This document shows, one piece after another, positions 43,408 through 62,700 of a DNA stretch of 64,000 nucleotides. The DNA is from Venturia oleaginea (taxonomy: Eukaryota > Ascomycota > Dothideomycetes > Venturiales > Venturiaceae). A model generated the notes under the pieces. The model worked only from the letters and a program-made list of their open reading frames with translations. It did no database searches and was not told the DNA's origin. The stretch's first letter is position 1, and the number at the start of each line of letters is the position of its first letter. The DNA is taken from assembly GCA_013176395.1 (NCBI GenBank), contig JABMLP010000012.1, forward strand, positions 1,426,001 to 1,490,000. The letters run 5' to 3'. The position numbers and the translations under genes were made by a program.

Positions 43408-44902
43408 TGCTGCGATCAAAGGTACTTACTGGTAGGACGAGGGAGCAGGGTGTGTGTTGCGATTGAAGGCAGGAGAAAGGAGGAGGATGGTGGGTAGTGA
43501 GGTAATATATCTTTAATGTCAAGTATATAGACCGAGCCAGCATAGTCTGCCGTGAGCAATGCCCTTCTCTGATTCACGTATCGAAGGGCGGCTTTTAACG
43601 ATGCAATATGTAGGGCTATATGAAGCAACGCCAAAGGTGAGCAGTGAAGATGGTAAGAGAGAACAATCAAGAAGGAAAGGAGACTGGATGCTCTATGATC
43701 TAGTTAGGACTCTAGGCAGTACTTATGTATCATGGTCATCTCAATGTCCGAGTGAGGACGACCGTAAGATACTCGCCCAGCACCAAATGATGCTTGTCGA
43801 TCGACATCGTGGTTTCGTGCTTTCGTATAATGATGAAGAGGGGAAGGAGCACAGGTAGTTGGACTAGGGCTTGCCTTGGAGAATGCGTAAACAGCGATTG
43901 GGTGGAGAGAGCACTGTGCGAGTGCGTCGCGGCTCTCTGTCAACGGGGAGAAGTATGGGATTGGGAAATTTTGCTGTGACTCTATTGGCTGAGATGGTTG
44001 GTCGCTGGCCGGGTGTTGTAGAGGATCCAGGAACATAGGTTGGTGTCAAGGAAGAATTTTACCTTATCATAGAAGTTGCAGGGTGCAAGAGCACTTGAAA
44101 AAATATAAAAAAATTGATTAGCGGTGCCGAGCCTTCAACGTGCTTCTTTCTGCAATGGGCAGCAATCATGAAATCAAGCCAGTCAATCACACGAGAATTG
44201 CATCTTCCATTCCGCTTCTTAACTCTTCTTCAACATCCTATCCTCAGATGAAAATAATCAATGAAAAGCCCAAATCCTATAACGCAAAACGCATAGAGCA
44301 AACTACAAGAAACACATATTTGCGCCTGTCAGAACACCATCACCGCACGTCGCAACCCAGCAGTGCGAACACGAACTGAGAAGAGACAGAGATCATCTCC
44401 AGATCAACCAAAGTCGATCCAAGAAACTCAATAAAGAGCAATATCACTCTAGTGCGGCGAGGTCAGAACTCATCAGCCAGGGTGTGGTCTGCAGCTCAAA
44501 TTGAAAACTCAATGAGAGAAGTTTACTATAGAAATGATTCTATGAAGTACTGTGTGGAATGTGTTAGCAAGTGGAGAGGAAAGATGGATGGCTCCGAATC
44601 CGCAATCATATTGTATCCATGAGAGATGGAGATGAATATGAGAGGGAGTTGGTTGAGAATTTGGGGCTTTGGGAGACACTCACAAGTCGACTAATTTTTG
44701 AATCTCTAGCGGGGGAGAACGCGGTTTTGATCAGAATTTTGCCCAGTGATGAGTAAGCAAAGTGGATCGTAGATAGGGATCTCATTGGTTGAGAGTGAAA
44801 TCTCTGTCTTGGCCCGTGCAAGAGCGAATGTGGGTCACACGTGCTCTTCCGAATAGCCGTGCACCAAAAAGGCATAGAAGGTTGGATTTGACACATCGAT
44901 AA
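43408..44902. other. Intergenic region before the transposon knot
   Basis: Frames at 43416-43670 (minus) and 43559-43858 (plus) overlap in antisense without domains. AT-rich patches occur near 44100. No gene is supported. Confidence 0.4.
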
Positions 44903-46415: not shown

Positions 46416-48059
46416 TTAAGCGGTTCTATGACGCTCTGGGCACGTCCTAGCATTATTTTCACGTGATTGGCATACGCTACACTTTGGTGGTGCTCGTTGC
46501 CGTACCTCGCCTCGGTCCCTAGCCTCTACCTTAGTACGGCTAATTACTTCTCTCTCAATAAGAGATTGAGCCTCAGCCTCTGTAAGAATACCTCCCTTTG
46601 CTATATACAACCGTCGCTTTTCTCTCTTCCGTTTTTGACGCTGGTTCTCGCTTCGCAGCCTCTCATTTTCGTGCGTAAGGAGGACAGCGCTGTGCATCGC
46701 CATTTGGCAACCTTTTACAAGCTGGTTTAAGGCCTGATCCGTCGGAGAGGGAGGGCTCTGCGTACGGCGCTTAAGGTATTGCTTTAGGAGTGTTGTTTGG
46801 TGCTGTAATTGAGTGATATTGTGCGGTGTTTCTAAGGTTCAGGCTGGTCCCTGCGGGAGTAGCTGGGGCGACGGCGTATGGAATTGAGCGTGTAAGAGCG
46901 ATAGTACTCGATCTGGGTTGTAAGGAACGAGTCCTGTAGCTGCAAAACCGCTTCGTAGGTTGTTTTCGTGAAGTGCCTCAGCGCGTGCTTGCTGGTATAG
47001 GGGTAGAAACTCTTGCTTGTCGATATGGTTTACGCCTAGGCTCATTTTCTGCTCGACGAGGCGGCCTTAGGATCGCTTGAGGACTGAAAAGCAGCCGACA
47101 TCGAGGGGCTGGAGTAGATGCGACGAATGAGGTGGCATACAGAGTACAATAATTGAGTGTTCCGAGCAGTATCGGTCAAACTCAGGAGCAACGTGACTAC
47201 CGTGGCCATCAAGTATCAGGAGCCTGTAGCGACCAATTGTACGATCTTTCGTATATTTATCAAATACGTGCTCAAGCCACCATAGGCCTATCTCGTTTGT
47301 AGTCCAGCCGTTTTCGCTCACGCCGATTGCCCAGTCTGGTGGTAGAAGCCCGTTTTCGTACCAAGCTGCTTGGTGCATTACCGCCTCGAAGATAACGAGT
47401 GGTGGGACCGCAAAACCTCGTGCGCAGATTGCCTCAATTACCGTCACCCATTCACGGTTACCTGGCTGCGTGGTCCTAGGTCTCCCTGCCCTATCTGTAC
47501 CCGTTATAACCTTTGCTGTTGAGACTACCCCCATCTGGAAGCCAGTCTCGTCGAAATTGTAGGTATCGTCATCGAGTATACCGTATTTGGCTTTCGTAAA
47601 CTGTACGCGTTCAAACCAGGCTCGAATAAGTACTGGGTCTTCGCACTGAGAACGCTGGTAGTCGTACTTGCGGTTGCACTTTGATTTAATTGAGTCGTGG
47701 CGATTGATGAAGTTGGTAACCCAGACCTTGCCTACAGAGGCAGGTTGCTTGCGTTCAGCGAGTAGAAGACGCGCCATCTCTCGAACAGCAGACGGCCTAG
47801 GTGGCATACCACTTTGGTCCATCGAGAGAATCCATTGTACAAGGGTATCTTCTTCAGTAGGTAAGAGGAGGCGATTTGTAGCAATAGAACCGAGTTTTGG
47901 ATGTACTCCGAGTAGACGGCGTTGTAGGGTCTTTCGCAGGACATCGTACGCGTTTGCAGCGGCTGTGTAAGATCGAAAATCGCCTCGCTTGTAGGCTTGA
48001 GCTGCTAGGTCAAGTCTACCTTCTTTGTACAAGGCTGCTTGCTGTTTTGAGGCTGACAT
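46416..48059 (-). pseudogene. pogo/Fot1-type DDD transposase with two in-frame stops
   Basis: From the ATG at 48059 (MSASKQQAALYKEG) one frame runs 547 codons to 46416. It has an HTH/CENPB-like N-terminus, then a DDE_1 catalytic domain with Asp in YNFDETGFQMG, LLILDGHGSHV and HLLQPLDVGCF (35 residues between the last two Asp). The C-terminus has a coiled coil and a zinc-knuckle-like motif (CSVCQSRENNARTC). Two stops break it: TAA at 47067-47069, where Tyr is likely, and TGA at 46839-46841, where TGG is likely. The second fits a G-to-A, RIP-type change. All motifs are otherwise kept, so the decay is recent. Confidence 0.88.
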
Positions 48060-48143
48060 AGTTGAAAGAAGTAGGTGAACGAGTCGAGTTCTGGTGGGGC
48101 GGGCCACATGTATATGCGGGCCACTTGCCTATAAACTACGTTA

Positions 48144-57307: not shown

Positions 57308-58188
57308 GGTGATTGCTGTTTGTGTATGGATGTGTGTGATACAATTGGTGGTGTTTAATAGTCTGTTACTTTCTTGGTGGGGATTGTTAGTGGAGGTAGA
57401 CCTTTTTGCTAGATTTCCGTAAACAGAACTTGATGTCTCTATCCAGAAGCAATTGACTCTCACCACATACCAATACCCTATTATCATGGAACAATTTTTT
57501 TACTGATCCCTTCACAATACCATGCAAACCATTTCCACCGCCACTGATCACAGCTTCGAGACTAGAGCGGCTTTTCGTTTGCGCTGTCAGGGATAATATC
57601 GATATTGCATTTCACGACATCAACCTTCCACGATGAGTGTCACTGACAGCCCTGGACCTACCCTCTATCTTACGCCGACGATATATCGGATGCCTTATAC
57701 ACACCCTACTCGGTTCAAAGCCTACTTTCAAACGAGTTGGCGACAGAACGCTGAGCAGCTCGTTGCAGGTAACAGGACGCCTCAGAACAGCAAAGCCCAT
57801 CCATTATCAGATCGCATGATTTGACAACGAGGAGAGTACAGGGCTAATGACTAGGAGTTGCTGCAATGCTCTAGCAGGTCGGGAAGTTTGCATCGCCGGT
57901 TTGTCAGTACAATTTGCTACTTTTGGTGGCGGAAGCGTGACCTTTTGAAAATTTCGCAGACATCCCACAATCAAACCACCACCACCCTTCTACTCTCTAA
58001 CTCCTCCATGAAAGAGGATATACTCAGACCTCCGACGACGTACTCTCGTTTCTTCAGCGGTGTGGCCCTGGGTCAAGTGTCAACGGCGCGTTCACGTCCA
58101 CCTCTCCTGAGCAGGCTGGCATCAAGCACTCCAAGGCGCGGCGGCTGCATCAAATCGACTACCCAGGAGGCAATCTGCATCACTCCTA
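57308..58188. other. Region upstream of the snoRNA-like array
   Basis: It should contain the promoter and first exon of the array's host transcript. Frames at 57633-57824 and 57858-58235 are short and domainless. No C/D motif pair was found here. Confidence 0.4.
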
Positions 58189-58406
58189 GTAAGTCTCGCA
58201 CAATCCACTTCCATTTTACCCCATCTCTGTTCTGATGGAAACCTGATGCTCACCTTTCCGACGCCTTGCGCTCAGTCATCAAGCATCGATGGGGAAGGAG
58301 ACCAACCTTCCTGTGCCCTTAGTACAGCGGCCGCACGGGACGCCATATTCCACCTACCTTGGAAACGACTAGTAAGTTTGCCCAGTCTCCAGCCCAGTCC
58401 ACATAC

Positions 58407-58485
58407 CTGCGATGATGATTAAATTCTTGTTTCCGATGTTTGCTACTGGGTAGCAAACTGAAGACAAATGTACGCGATTGAGCAG
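58407..58485 (+). ncRNA. Box C/D snoRNA-like unit A
   Basis: C box ATGATGA is at 58412-58418 and a D-like TTGA at 58478-58481. The terminal stem is CTGC/GCAG. Internally a D'-like CCGA precedes the hairpin TTTGCT...AGCAAA and a C'-like TGAAGA. The C box starts 40 nt after the GTAAGT donor. Confidence 0.6.
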
Positions 58486-58640
58486 CATTGCTACGCCCTC
58501 ATCACTCCCATACCCTCGGTGACGCCGCGCTGACGAGGCTGCAAACACCCCATCCACACAGAATAATCCTAACGACGCGACTGAAGCGACCTACCTTGAA
58601 GACGACTCAGTGAGTTTGCTCCACTTCCCTCCCTCCTCAC

Positions 58641-58730
58641 AATTGTGATGATGATACAACTTTTCTTTCTTCTGATGAATGCTGGTTGACAGTAAGATGA
58701 AGACAATGAGAGCATATCCTTTTGACCTCA
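58641..58730 (+). ncRNA. Box C/D snoRNA-like unit B (degenerate)
   Basis: C box GTGATGA is at 58645-58651, 35 nt after the donor at 58610, and a D-like TTGA is at 58722-58725. The terminal stem is not evident and the internal hairpin is weak, so this copy is probably decayed. Confidence 0.4.
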
Positions 58731-58856
58731 CTAAATCAAGTCTTTTCGAACGCGGCACGCTGACAAAAGGTAGATGTACAACCACACATGGACCCCGTGC
58801 GACGCGAAGGCTGTGGCAGCGCAGTGAGTTCTCATTCTGAATCCTCCCACCACAAA

Positions 58857-58917
58857 CCAGCATGATGACAGCAACTTTTGCCATCCTCTTATACTTGCTG
58901 TTGATAGCAAGATGTTG
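58857..58917 (+). ncRNA. Box C/D snoRNA-like unit C (truncated)
   Basis: C box ATGATGA is at 58862-58868, 38 nt after the donor at 58824, and the internal hairpin CTTGCTGTTGATAGCAAG is well formed. The part after it is about 60 nt shorter than in other units, and the next CTGA coincides with the splice branch region, so the D box appears deleted. Confidence 0.4.
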
Positions 58918-59189
58918 AGAGCCCTCTCGTTGTAGCAGCTGACAAAGAAACGGTCGTATCCAACCATCAAGTACAACTTCTTCAACCATGGACAATACCC
59001 AGTATGTTATCCTCCCCCATGTTTTGCTCCCTTCGATAAATAGCTGCTAACGGGAACCAGATCTTCCAGATACCGAATTCAGAATGCCCAAGCTTTTCAC
59101 GACCAGTATCACCATACACACACATCGCAGCTGGTCAGTCTCCTCGCATCCCAACCCTGTCCTTCACAAAACAAGTATCCAGACACGCA

Positions 59190-59266
59190 TGCTATGATGA
59201 TAATGTTGGCCATCCTATCCTTGCTATTGCAAGGCGATGGGGAACGAAATTTGTATCTAAGCAGCA
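59190..59266 (+). ncRNA. Box C/D snoRNA-like unit D
   Basis: C box ATGATGA is at 59195-59201 and the D variant CTAA at 59257-59260. The internal hairpin CCTTGCTATTGCAAGG is followed by C'-like ATGGGGA. The host donor is at 59134 and the acceptor at 59328. Confidence 0.6.
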
Positions 59267-59446
59267 AGGCACTCTTACGCTCTCTTAATTTTTTAACCTC
59301 TTCAGAAATGCGCGCTGACCGAACCCAGATATTCCATTACCAGATCTGAACTCCAAGCTCTTCTCGTCTCGACGAATTTATCACACACATCGCGACTCGA
59401 TCAGTTGCTCGCTAGTCTGTCCCTCATAGCAATCTATCAACTATAC

Positions 59447-59529
59447 TTGCTATGATGGTGATAGGTGATGTTCATCTCAACTTTGCTGCCAGCAAGAGGA
59501 ATGAGGATTATGCCGTCTTTCTGAGCAGA
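59447..59529 (+). ncRNA. Box C/D snoRNA-like unit E
   Basis: The C box variant ATGATGG is at 59452-59458 and a perfect D box CTGA at 59521-59524. The terminal stem is TTGC/GCAG-like. The internal hairpin TTTGCTGCCAGCAAG precedes C'-like ATGAGGA. The acceptor follows 71 nt after the D box. Confidence 0.6.
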
Positions 59530-59698
59530 ACGCCCACACTCTCATAAGTCCTACACACACCTCTGTAGACACACGCGCTGACCAAAACCAGATAGATTCG
59601 TTTACTTCCAGGCTCAAAAACTTCAGGCTTTCTTTGGCCATAATCATCGCCGCTCTTGTATGTTGTACGTGCCCTTCCCAGTATTTGATCAACCATAC

Positions 59699-59777
59699 TT
59701 ACTACGATGATAGCACGGGTTGTTCTTACTCTTGCTATCAGCAAAAAACATGAGGATAATCGTTGTGTCTGAGCAGG
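59699..59777 (+). ncRNA. Box C/D snoRNA-like unit F
   Basis: The C box variant ACGATGA is at 59704-59710 and D box CTGA at 59769-59772. The hairpin CTTGCTATCAGCAA precedes C'-like TGAGGA. The one-base change in the C box may weaken binding of the snoRNP core protein. Confidence 0.55.
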
Positions 59778-59955
59778 ATTCTCACACTTTTATGCCCCGC
59801 ATCTCTTCAAAGATGTGCGCTGACTGAAACCAAATAGATCTATTTGTGTCCCCGCCCACAAATTCCAAGCTCTTCTCAGCCATGGTCAACATACACCAAC
59901 ATATACGATACCACTCGGTAAGTCTGTCGCTGCATCCCGATCCCTCACAAACGAT

Positions 59956-60038
59956 CTTGCTATGATGAATACCTATGCGTTGTAGTACGGGCACTTGCTC
60001 GCAAGTAATGGAGAGGACAACAGTTATTCCTAAGCAAG
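59956..60038 (+). ncRNA. Box C/D snoRNA-like unit G
   Basis: C box ATGATGA is at 59962-59968 and D variant CTAA at 60030-60033, bounded by a CTTGC/GCAAG terminal stem. The hairpin ACTTGCTCGCAAGT precedes C'-like TGGAGA. The host intron is 59918-60098. Confidence 0.65.
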
Positions 60039-60212
60039 AAGATCTCAAACTTTTGTGTCTTCCCTCTTCTCCCAGGAGCAAGCGCTGATTAGATCTAGGT
60101 GCATGAGCTCTTCGTGGCTCCCAGATTTTAGATACCCATCCCGTCAATGATGGATCCTTTGCCAAAGTAACATCGGTAAGCCTATCTTCCTGTCCTAATC
60201 TGTTGCACTATT

Positions 60213-60298
60213 CTTGCTATGATGATTATTTATAATCCATGTTCTGATACTTGCTACTCGCAAGTAATGGAGAGAACACCATGTTATTCTTGAGTAAG
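60213..60298 (+). ncRNA. Box C/D snoRNA-like unit H
   Basis: C box ATGATGA is at 60219-60225 and a D-like TTGA at 60290-60293. A perfect D'-type CTGA stands before the hairpin ACTTGCTACTCGCAAGT, followed by C'-like TGGAGA. The host intron is 60176-60356. Confidence 0.6.
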
Positions 60299-60470
60299 GA
60301 GATTCAACTCTCATGTCCTGCATATTCTCCAAACACCAAGCGCTAATCGACGTTAGACACGCTCAAGCTGAACCCATACATCTGAGCTCTTGTCTGCTAT
60401 AGCCACTCTGCACCCTTCCATGACTTCGGTAAGTCCGCATCCACAGCAAAGATCCTAGACACTATACTTA

Positions 60471-60545
60471 TTGCCATGATGAAAAATTTCCTGATTCCGA
60501 CGTGTTGAAAGCAAAAGGGGGAATCATTACATTTTCTAAGCGAAG
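60471..60545 (+). ncRNA. Box C/D snoRNA-like unit I
   Basis: C box ATGATGA is at 60476-60482 and D variant CTAA at 60536-60539, with a short TTGC/GCGA stem. D'-like CCGA precedes a weakened hairpin. The host intron is 60429-60610. Confidence 0.55.
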
Positions 60546-60698
60546 CTCTCCTTCCACTCTCGCATCTGATTCTCTTCAATGATTGAACGTTGACTGAATG
60601 AGATTTTAAGCTTACCGCGATTATTCCAAGCTCTTAGCCCAACGGGCCGGGAGCCTTCAGTAGTAACTCCTATCAGAACATAAATCCAAACACCATAC

Positions 60699-60775
60699 TG
60701 GCTCTGATGAAAATATTTTACCTCATTCCGACTTGCTTCAAGCAAATGGGGATACATGCTTGTTTCTGAGCAAAG
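60699..60775 (+). ncRNA. Box C/D snoRNA-like unit J
   Basis: A CTGATGA C box is at 60704-60710 and a perfect CTGA D box at 60766-60769. D'-like CCGA precedes the hairpin CTTGCTTCAAGCAA and C'-like ATGGGGA. The host intron is 60660-60831. Confidence 0.6.
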
Positions 60776-60974
60776 CACTCCTTCCACCCTCCGACCTGAG
60801 TACTTTCAAGACCGGACGCTGACTAAATCAGACCCCAAACTTTCCGAGTTTATTCCAAGCTCTGCACTCAATGAGCTAAGGCCCCTTGGCGTCAGCCCTG
60901 AGGTCTCAACAACTGGCGAATTTCGGCGCCTTCCAGACCCACAAAGTAAGCCACCTCTTCCACATAAACGACCA

Positions 60975-61030
60975 CTGCCATGATGAGCGCACAACATGTT
61001 CTTATTTGAACCGAATGAGCCAATCTAGCT
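60975..61030 (+). ncRNA. Box C/D snoRNA-like unit K (degenerate)
   Basis: C box ATGATGA at 60980-60986 lies 34 nt after a GTAAGC donor at 60946. No D box or internal hairpin of the usual form follows, so this is a decayed or unrelated copy. Confidence 0.3.
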
Positions 61031-61231
61031 GGCTGTCGACACCCTCGCTACAGTCTTTGAAATCTACCCTCACCAGCGTATTATTGTCCACCTGTTGACG
61101 GCGTAGATCGCTAACTATTGGATGCAAATGCCTTGTTCGACTTCATCCTGCAATAATCTATGGCTCTATCCACTTGGTCAATTAACATCGCCCCACGTCA
61201 TGTTCATCGGGAATGGTTATTGAAACAATGC

Positions 61232-61317
61232 TTGCTATGATGAAAGATCTTACCGCGGAATCCCACAATTGTCTTCACAAGTAGATGGGGTAAATATCAG
61301 GTTGTCGTCTGAGCAAG
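61232..61317 (+). ncRNA. Box C/D snoRNA-like unit L (best conserved)
   Basis: A CTTGCT stem leads into C box ATGATGA at 61237-61243, and D box CTGA at 61309-61312 runs into GCAAG, forming a perfect terminal stem. A CTTCACAAG hairpin remnant and C'-like ATGGGGT lie inside. Bases 61250-61258 (TTACCGCGG) are complementary to the universally conserved CCGCGGTAA of small-subunit rRNA (the 530-loop region), so this unit may guide or chaperone 18S rRNA. The acceptor is at 61379. Confidence 0.7.
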
Positions 61318-61379
61318 ACAACCTACAATATCACACCTTCACTCCTTTGCAAAAACGACCAAATTCTGACTGATGGCAG

Positions 61380-62700
61380 ATTCAGACAGATTCACTCCCC
61401 ATACCCAGCAAGTCCAAGCTCTTTGCAAATATACTCATCTGCTATCCTACTCCTTGCCCGTTGTCCTTCCTCTCCTGTTACAAAATCGCAGCAATGCCGG
61501 TATGTGTGGTTGTTCTTCATCGGGGACGGTAGTGGTGGTAGTGCAACCCCTCTCCAAGGAAGACAAACCAGTGGGACGAGATGATCTTGACGGAGTCTGG
61601 ACATATGTAGACTCTTTAGTTGAGCAATGTACTTGCAAAACTTAGGAAATTTAATTCTCATCTTCAGCACCACAGCGAATCTGGTGATTCAAGACCGTTC
61701 CACACACACTTAACATAGCTCAAATTGCTGAACTTAAGATCGACATCGACAAATCTCTGGCGACCTCATTGCCAGAATTCGGTAGAAAGCTATCGACAGC
61801 CGCCATCCCGAGTCAAGAGACTGGTTTTCTGAAACTAGATATATAGAGTTGATAGCAGTGGAAGGGACATCAATTGGAGGCCCTGTTGTGATACTGAAAT
61901 GTCCAGGCCATGGACATTGAGCACAGTTGTCGTCTAATTTTTTGATGATTGGTTCTTACCATTGACAGACATGATCAGATCCACCTCGACATCGCAGCTC
62001 AGCCATAAGTGAGGTGGATGAGAAAAGAGCTTGGGCCGAGGTCACGTGGTGGGTACCAAATTCCAAAAAACCGCCTCAGTCTCAGTTCTAGGTGGATGTC
62101 CAATAGGATGAGAGATGAGAGCGGTTATAGTATGCGTCGCACGCGAGGGTAGACTGTGATCTTGCCATTTTAGTCAGATTGCATTGTCGGCCTCATTGAG
62201 ATAGTGATTGAGAAAAGTGAAAGGGTTAGCCGTCTCCATATTCGCCCTTGTGTGGAAATTTCTAGTGCCCAGTGCGTTTCTAGCCTGTCAATCGCCAAAC
62301 TTTGCCAGCGGAAACTGGTCGCATGTTATAAGTCCTGCATAGAGTTGTAGATCTGTTCCGGTTTGGCCTTGTAATTGGGATATTGCCTGATAGGTGCTGC
62401 ACAGGTTATTCCGACTCGTAATATGGAGGCTGGAGGTATAATCCTCAAACTCGCTTCATTAAGCAAGGCCGAGTGAGTTGCGCTACCTTTCGAGCTCCGC
62501 ATTACCGAACTTGATATTTTGTTCTCAAAGTGCGCAGCCTCAAAATCATGCCATATGATCAACCAATCAATATCAGTTTGAAGGAGTTCGATGGACAAGT
62601 GAGGTGTTTCGATACGTGGTGGCTGGCGCTCAGGGCATCGTCTCATCGATGTATGCTCGCGAGCTGGTTCGGAATGAAGGCCTGGTACCCCTGTTGGTCG
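61380..62700. other. End of the array and following non-coding sequence
   Basis: An exon-like stretch with the AAGCTCTT core continues to about 61,490. A GTATGT near 61,500 may begin one more, degenerate unit (ATGATCT at about 61581, TTGAGCAA at about 61620). Beyond that, frames such as 62326-62646 (minus) have no recognisable domain. Confidence 0.35.

Follow-up and report, generated by a model that had tools for sequence, protein, structure and literature searches.

The 64,000-nucleotide (nt) stretch of Venturia oleaginea DNA analysed here (the window; part of contig C4 in the 46-Mb genome) contains, between positions 58,189 and 61,379 of the forward (+) strand, a head-to-tail succession of short predicted exons and introns, the latter carrying segments that resemble box C/D small nucleolar RNAs (snoRNAs). 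Our follow-up of this region was a sequence-only analysis, and at that level it confirms that the tandem exon-intron array with C/D snoRNA-like elements is real. Twelve units (u1 to u12) possess a C box, with starts at 58412, 58648, 58862, 59194, 59452, 59704, 59962, 60219, 60476, 60704, 60980 and 61237; a thirteenth C box (58236, u0) was chosen by eye and is doubtful, so that the approximately 13 units of the first-pass annotation come down to twelve and an uncertain candidate. The distance from C box to C box is 214-332 nt, somewhat wider than the 215-290 bp given earlier as the usual spacing; the single step of 332 nt, between u3 and u4, is explained by a further small predicted intron that lacks a C box (59002..59060, donor GTATGT, branch CTAAC).

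On its + strand, the region 58189-61379 contains the C-box motif TGATGA 12 times, in a few cases within elements rather than at C boxes; dinucleotide shuffles (n=2000) contain it 1.7 times on average and 7 times at most, the minus strand of the array twice, and an equal length of the remaining window 1.4 times. The motif in RNA form, UGAUGA, is the core of the C box in 10/12 units. Nine units (u1, u4-u10 and u12), which we call core units, show the same order of parts. The 5' strand of the terminal stem, whose last letter is C, leads into the C box; a first guide (14-18 nt) separates this from a D'-like box, and an inner hairpin, mostly of the type CTTGC...GCAAG, separates the latter from C' (TGRRGA in 7/9). 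Between C' and the D box lies the other guide (12-17 nt), and the 3' stem strand closes the element. Downstream of each core element follow a branch point, CGCTGAC or similar, and then AG; there are 9 copies of the branch motif CGCT(A/G)A(C/T), as against a shuffled mean of 0.85. From C box to D box the core units measure 64-76 nt, exactly as annotated before. The earlier figure of about 40 nt between donor and C box fits 11/13 units (34-47 nt) and fails in u4 and u12 (59-60 nt), and in the core units the predicted acceptors are found 62-80 nt downstream of the D box, a broader range than the 62-71 nt first proposed. The internal exons, as predicted, measure 42-114 nt.

Eleven of the units share a common ancestry through local duplication. 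Profiles built without the unit under test and then searched for that unit recover all nine core units as well as u2 and u3, and the likeness of the units therefore exceeds chance. Adjacent units are most similar to each other (permutation p=0.0002), from which it follows that the array grew via tandem duplication. The first-pass view of diverged paralogues on one backbone thus stands for these eleven, with u0 and u11 outside. What has been conserved among them is unevenly distributed: the boxes C, C' and D were kept together with the stems and the branch point, while exons and guides drifted. Mean pairwise identity in the core units reaches 0.90 in the C box, 0.82 in the branch point, 0.78 in the D box and 0.76 in C' (0.59 when shuffled), and D' stands at 0.53 against 0.35 shuffled; the guides (0.54 and 0.55; lengths 12-18 nt), the exons (0.59) and the donor spacer (0.61) are close to the shuffled 0.51-0.57. 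In the terminal stem 82% of cells are paired in the nine core units, compared with 27-47% in slid positions, the stem having been defined on these same sequences.

All features of the array lie on the + strand. The predicted non-coding host would begin with a leader or approximate first exon (57950..58188) that ends at the donor GTAAGT at 58189; this is also the donor of the predicted u0 intron (58189..58329), in which a doubtful, degenerate element lies near 58236. The u1 element (58405..58487; held-out E=0.0032) lies in the predicted intron 58372-58561 and combines C box ATGATGA, D' CCGA, inner hairpin, C' TGAAGA and D box TTGA at 58478. The u2 element (58641..58713, predicted intron 58610-58773) is shortened before an ATGA D-like box, and that of u3 (58855..58947, predicted intron 58824-58947) has an uncertain D box; both stand outside the model, yet u2 is matched at E=8.9e-5 by the model and 2.4e-4 by the profile, and u3 is matched at 0.053 and 0.018, respectively. 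The u4 element (59187..59266, D box CTAA at 59257, predicted intron 59134-59328 with a weak donor) is recovered at a held-out E=4.6e-8, and at 2.3e-4 with boxes scrambled. Next come u5 (59445..59530, C box ATGATGG, D box CTGA at 59521, held-out E=2.2e-11, predicted intron 59415-59591) and u6 (59697..59778, C box ACGATGA, D box CTGA at 59769, held-out E=1.1e-7, predicted intron 59665-59837), both with weak donors, and u7 (59955..60039, D box CTAA at 60030, predicted intron 59918-60098). In u8 (60212..60299, predicted intron 60176-60356, held-out E=2.8e-11) the D' box is CTGA, the inner stem has 7 bp, C' is TGGAGA and the D box is TTGA at 60290. The series continues with u9 (60469..60545, D box CTAA at 60536, predicted intron 60429-60610), u10 (60697..60775, C box CTGATGA, D box CTGA at 60766, held-out E=7.8e-10, predicted intron 60660-60831 with a weak donor) and u11 (60973..61044, predicted intron 60946-61106), whose D box is uncertain and whose D'-adjacent stretch is complementary to 25S ribosomal RNA (rRNA). 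The last unit is u12 (61230..61318, D box CTGA at 61309, held-out E=1.2e-6, predicted intron 61178-61379 with a guessed donor); after its CAG acceptor at 61379 the host is predicted to end in a last exon at approximately 61380..61700.

On the predicted splice sites the exons carry no sign of protein coding, as the first-pass annotation had supposed; it had named a conserved protein frame as the finding that would speak against it, and none was found. None of 71 candidate proteins is related at E<=1 to the 144-residue translation of the longest spliced open frame, and none of five translations, two of them from the leader exon, reaches a Pfam cut-off. It could be argued that the repeats are not snoRNAs at all: they might encode a repetitive protein, represent introner-like mobile introns, or hold a cis-acting splicing element that contains ATGATGA by chance. 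The C/D assignments are indeed all sequence-based, and one spliced frame is open for 152 codons. However, shuffled sequence yields stop-free frames just as long (p=0.15), 8/13 internal exons are not multiples of three, and no protein or Pfam match was obtained. Against mobile introns, there is no second genomic copy of the array at the DNA level: the region has one DNA match genome-wide, in a search that skips common words. The sequence TTGCTATGATGA occurs at 19 genomic places, of which the 3 inside the array all have a D box plus stem, while 0/16 of the others have a D box with matching stem. We therefore regard an identity other than snoRNAs as highly improbable. Outside the array no weak match of the array model was accepted: the best (L048, 561-599, minus strand, E 0.0055) spans 39 nt, and the next (L050, 1492-1588, E 0.017) was rejected, being without a D box with stem. 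In two sets of other loci, one of 6 and one of 16, Rfam reported no family over threshold.

An ordinary C/D host in the same genome provides a yardstick. Cluster I (snR78/72-77-76-75-74-73) was located via a gapped snR74 pattern on contig C61 (L032), around 1719431 on the minus strand. A 14-mer snR75 pattern had been of no use, since it hit 17 places (7 + 10), fewer than its reversed control (25 + 28), and no cluster. Like the array, cluster I appears as a non-coding host with mostly one C/D element per intron, short internal exons, donors some 40-60 nt 5' of the element and a unit spacing near 250 nt. Two of its C boxes are degenerate (TGATTA in the snR77 unit, TGACGA in snR73). Among the known fungal clusters the comparison covered cluster I, and the two loci are not similar in sequence. 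In contrast to the array, with its 11 paralogues, about twice as many units and no convincing rRNA guide on the backbone, the units of cluster I are far less alike and have rRNA guides: 7/7 return known rRNA sites, hitting 4 of them exactly and missing 3 by 1-3 nt, with z = -1.8 to -3.1. Its registers were placed knowing the target sites, which favours the yardstick.

The comparison with rRNA was made against a working reference of yeast rRNA, because two conserved patterns for 18S and 25S ribosomal DNA (rDNA) found no match in the fungus's own assembly; the assembly therefore probably lacks the rDNA repeats. Two rRNA scans of viral contigs gave no match either. The working 25S matches segments of L010, a sequence labelled Gammaproteobacteria that is in fact a divergent eukaryotic large-subunit (LSU) rRNA, at 76-93% identity; the methylated positions of yeast fall on the expected letter in 19/19 cases, a check in which sequence and positions are of one origin. 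Four contigs of bacterial metagenome-assembled genomes (L009, L011, L012 and L013) have 76-77 nt at a contig end identical to the yeast LSU rRNA reference, stretches that are possibly host sequence or junctions of rDNA-inserted retroelements.

The array could also be read as an ordinary polycistronic C/D host, with conventional 2'-O-methylation guides directed at lineage-specific rRNA sites that are invisible with yeast rRNA. Its architecture does resemble cluster I, and the 21 array guides taken together have a mean z of -0.58 (Fisher 0.006; 0.044 in another run). Three of them reach p<=0.05 (u8 D', 0.046; u8 D, 0.040; u11 D', 0.007), one of which, u11 D', is also at p<=0.02. The D' set shows a complementarity peak at the exact register, and without u11, excluded from this and the decoy comparison because its D' box was picked with the rRNA match in view, its mean z on real rRNA is -0.71 to -0.76, below that of random stretches (-0.06, p=0.01). 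Decoy rRNAs (reversed, reverse complement and complement), however, give mean z of -0.43, -0.49 and -0.76. Two of the three score worse than real rRNA, yet the decoys reach 60 to 100% of the excess, so that we reject the D' complementarity as rRNA-specific: the effect is mostly not so, although it may contain a weak genuine rRNA component. The D guides at register resemble random stretches (-0.10 vs 0.10), whereas cluster I guides, with registers chosen knowing the target, reach z -2.1 to -2.7 on the same reference in the decoy-test run. Not one of the best sites of the 21 array guides coincides exactly with a yeast methylation site on our list; the best site of u5 D lies 2 nt from a site on that list, 25S G2619, at p=0.32. 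A duplex test of whole elements that included small nuclear RNAs (snRNAs) gave p>=0.07 in 13/13 array units and also p>=0.06 in 6/6 units of cluster I, and is thus powerless. A conventional guide function for the backbone units is, on balance, doubtful.

In the backbone units, then, no convincing guide complementarity at the D/D'+5 register was found on the yeast rRNA reference, and this absence of targets is provisional because yeast rRNA differs from that of this fungus in expansion segments. Nor does it exclude membership in the C/D class, because orphan C/D snoRNAs lack rRNA and snRNA guides. The case of u11, which is unrelated to the other units, is separate: a 13-bp match to 25S 1457-1469 (12 Watson-Crick pairs and one GU) ends next to a D'-like CCGA, and u11 may be an ordinary guide. 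Its 25S site is missing from our list of yeast sites, and from Table 1 of a Neurospora crassa study (PMC2780460; numbering shifted by about 19).

Several results weigh against the interpretation of the array as a family of C/D snoRNAs in a spliced host. The D box is CTGA in 4/9 core units, TTGA in 2/9 and CTAA in 3/9, and with so few canonical boxes some copies may be in decay. Just 5/9 held-out units are recovered at E<=0.014 once the C and D boxes are scrambled. The profile of the other units leaves u0 (58236) and u11 (60980) unmatched, and donors are weak or guessed in u4, u5, u6, u10 and u12. Covariation in the terminal stem is no higher than in shuffles among the nine core units, and single inner hairpins are no better than shuffled except in u1 (1/12 at p<0.05), in a test that ran with the D box misplaced in u2, u3, u4 and u11. 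When a C box, CTGA and a stem of 4 or more are all demanded, 2 array units pass, as does 1 candidate on the + strand outside the array and another on the minus strand. Rfam, which the first-pass annotation had proposed as a check, finds no family at threshold over the array even in a permissive setting, while 3/6 units of cluster I match. Finally, the array model has five weak matches in the 16 other TTGCTATGATGA loci, the best at E 0.0055 and 0.017.

Such degeneration invites the explanation that the array is a relic, i.e. formerly functional snoRNA copies that are now pseudogenes and have stayed in register through slow divergence. It would account for the CTAA or TTGA D boxes in 5/9 core units, for an unrecognised u0, a shortened u2 and a u3 without clear D box, and for the few guides that match rRNA. 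Nevertheless, the C and C' boxes, the stems and the branch point were kept while exons, spacers and guides approached shuffled identity, and a conserved core beside drifted exons and guides is not what neutral decay predicts; we consider a wholesale relic unlikely.

We therefore favour, with a probability of roughly 70%, a non-coding, spliced host similar to UHG, whose introns would carry a C/D snoRNA-like family grown by repeated tandem duplication of a unit. By analogy with established C/D snoRNA biology, the host transcript would be spliced, and each excised intron debranched and trimmed to the core formed by the C/D and C'/D' kink-turns; shielded by Snu13, Nop56/Nop58 and fibrillarin, this core would persist as an RNA of roughly 75-90 nt. 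The guides would have diversified after duplication, most products would be orphans that lack a conventional rRNA target, and the degenerate D boxes would reflect birth and decay of copies. Most likely, then, amplification has turned a fungal snoRNA host into an array of paralogues that are largely orphans and of which some are decaying. The first-pass interpretation holds as to the tandem C/D-like array and its non-coding exons, and has to be restricted in that several D boxes are degenerate and 2/13 units lie off the backbone.

Elsewhere in the window, positions 44324-44555 (minus strand) hold a fungal U3 snoRNA (RF01846, 117 bits), the one place in the window where Rfam gives a match over threshold. 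A long open frame at 47067-48107 (minus strand) resembles, as we presume from its translation, a DDE transposase of the Tc1/pogo type. A transcription factor encoded nearby is 83% identical to its Venturia nashicola counterpart and 80% to that of V. effusa, and metagenome proteins reach up to 87%.

Intronic C/D hosts as such are well known from fungi. Neurospora crassa is reported to have 55 C/D snoRNAs, mostly singleton genes, 45/55 of them intronic and 2 orphans, and its UHG-like C/D hosts comprise clusters I-V (PMC2780460); clusters I-III of such hosts are reported across fungi (PMC3596301). A fungal 'atypical snoRNA motif' is mostly intronic, for example in S. pombe cpc2, and is most often found at G-protein genes; like the array elements it is an intronic, C/D-like element with imperfect boxes, but it is described as conserved and complementary to rRNA, not as an array, and its stated box consensus differs (PMC5640933). 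A 2024 review describes large C/D tandem repeats as recent eutherian innovations, naming them in eutherian mammals only, with one in rat, and its authors say that understudied genomes might hold more; they also note a tendency of unicellular organisms such as fungi to replace snoRNA families wholesale rather than to keep remnants (PMC11028025). No fungal array of C/D paralogues was found in titles and abstract openings of the open-licence literature. The first-pass annotation knew of no described example; fungal intronic clusters and mammalian tandem arrays had both been described, and what appears to be new is the combination of a fungal intronic C/D host with a tandem array of paralogues.

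With the mammalian SNORD113/114, SNORD115/116 and rat Bsr families (PMC11028025) the array shares C/D paralogues in repeated predicted introns, a predicted non-coding host, an apparently orphan character and local duplication; tandem C/D-like paralogues in one predicted non-coding host, the hallmark of the SNORD115/116 type, are present in its sequence. It differs in being fungal, in having about a dozen copies rather than up to hundreds, in the irrelevance of imprinting, and in guides and exons that have diverged to near-shuffled identity. The likeness is one of workings, and shared ancestry is not expected. We tentatively raise the possibility of a fungal counterpart of the mammalian orphan arrays, in which tandem duplication keeps making C/D RNAs, the core is kept, and the guides diversify toward targets other than rRNA, the units staying below the duplication length that is sensitive to repeat-induced point mutation in Neurospora. 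That process hits duplications above about 400 bp and is named as a brake on duplication (PMC2780460); the array units are shorter than this limit, and the dinucleotide indices of the array, judged by the usual thresholds, carry no signature of repeat-induced point mutation. If our reading is true, the array would offer a compact and tractable fungal system for the origin, guide diversification and decay of orphan C/D snoRNAs.

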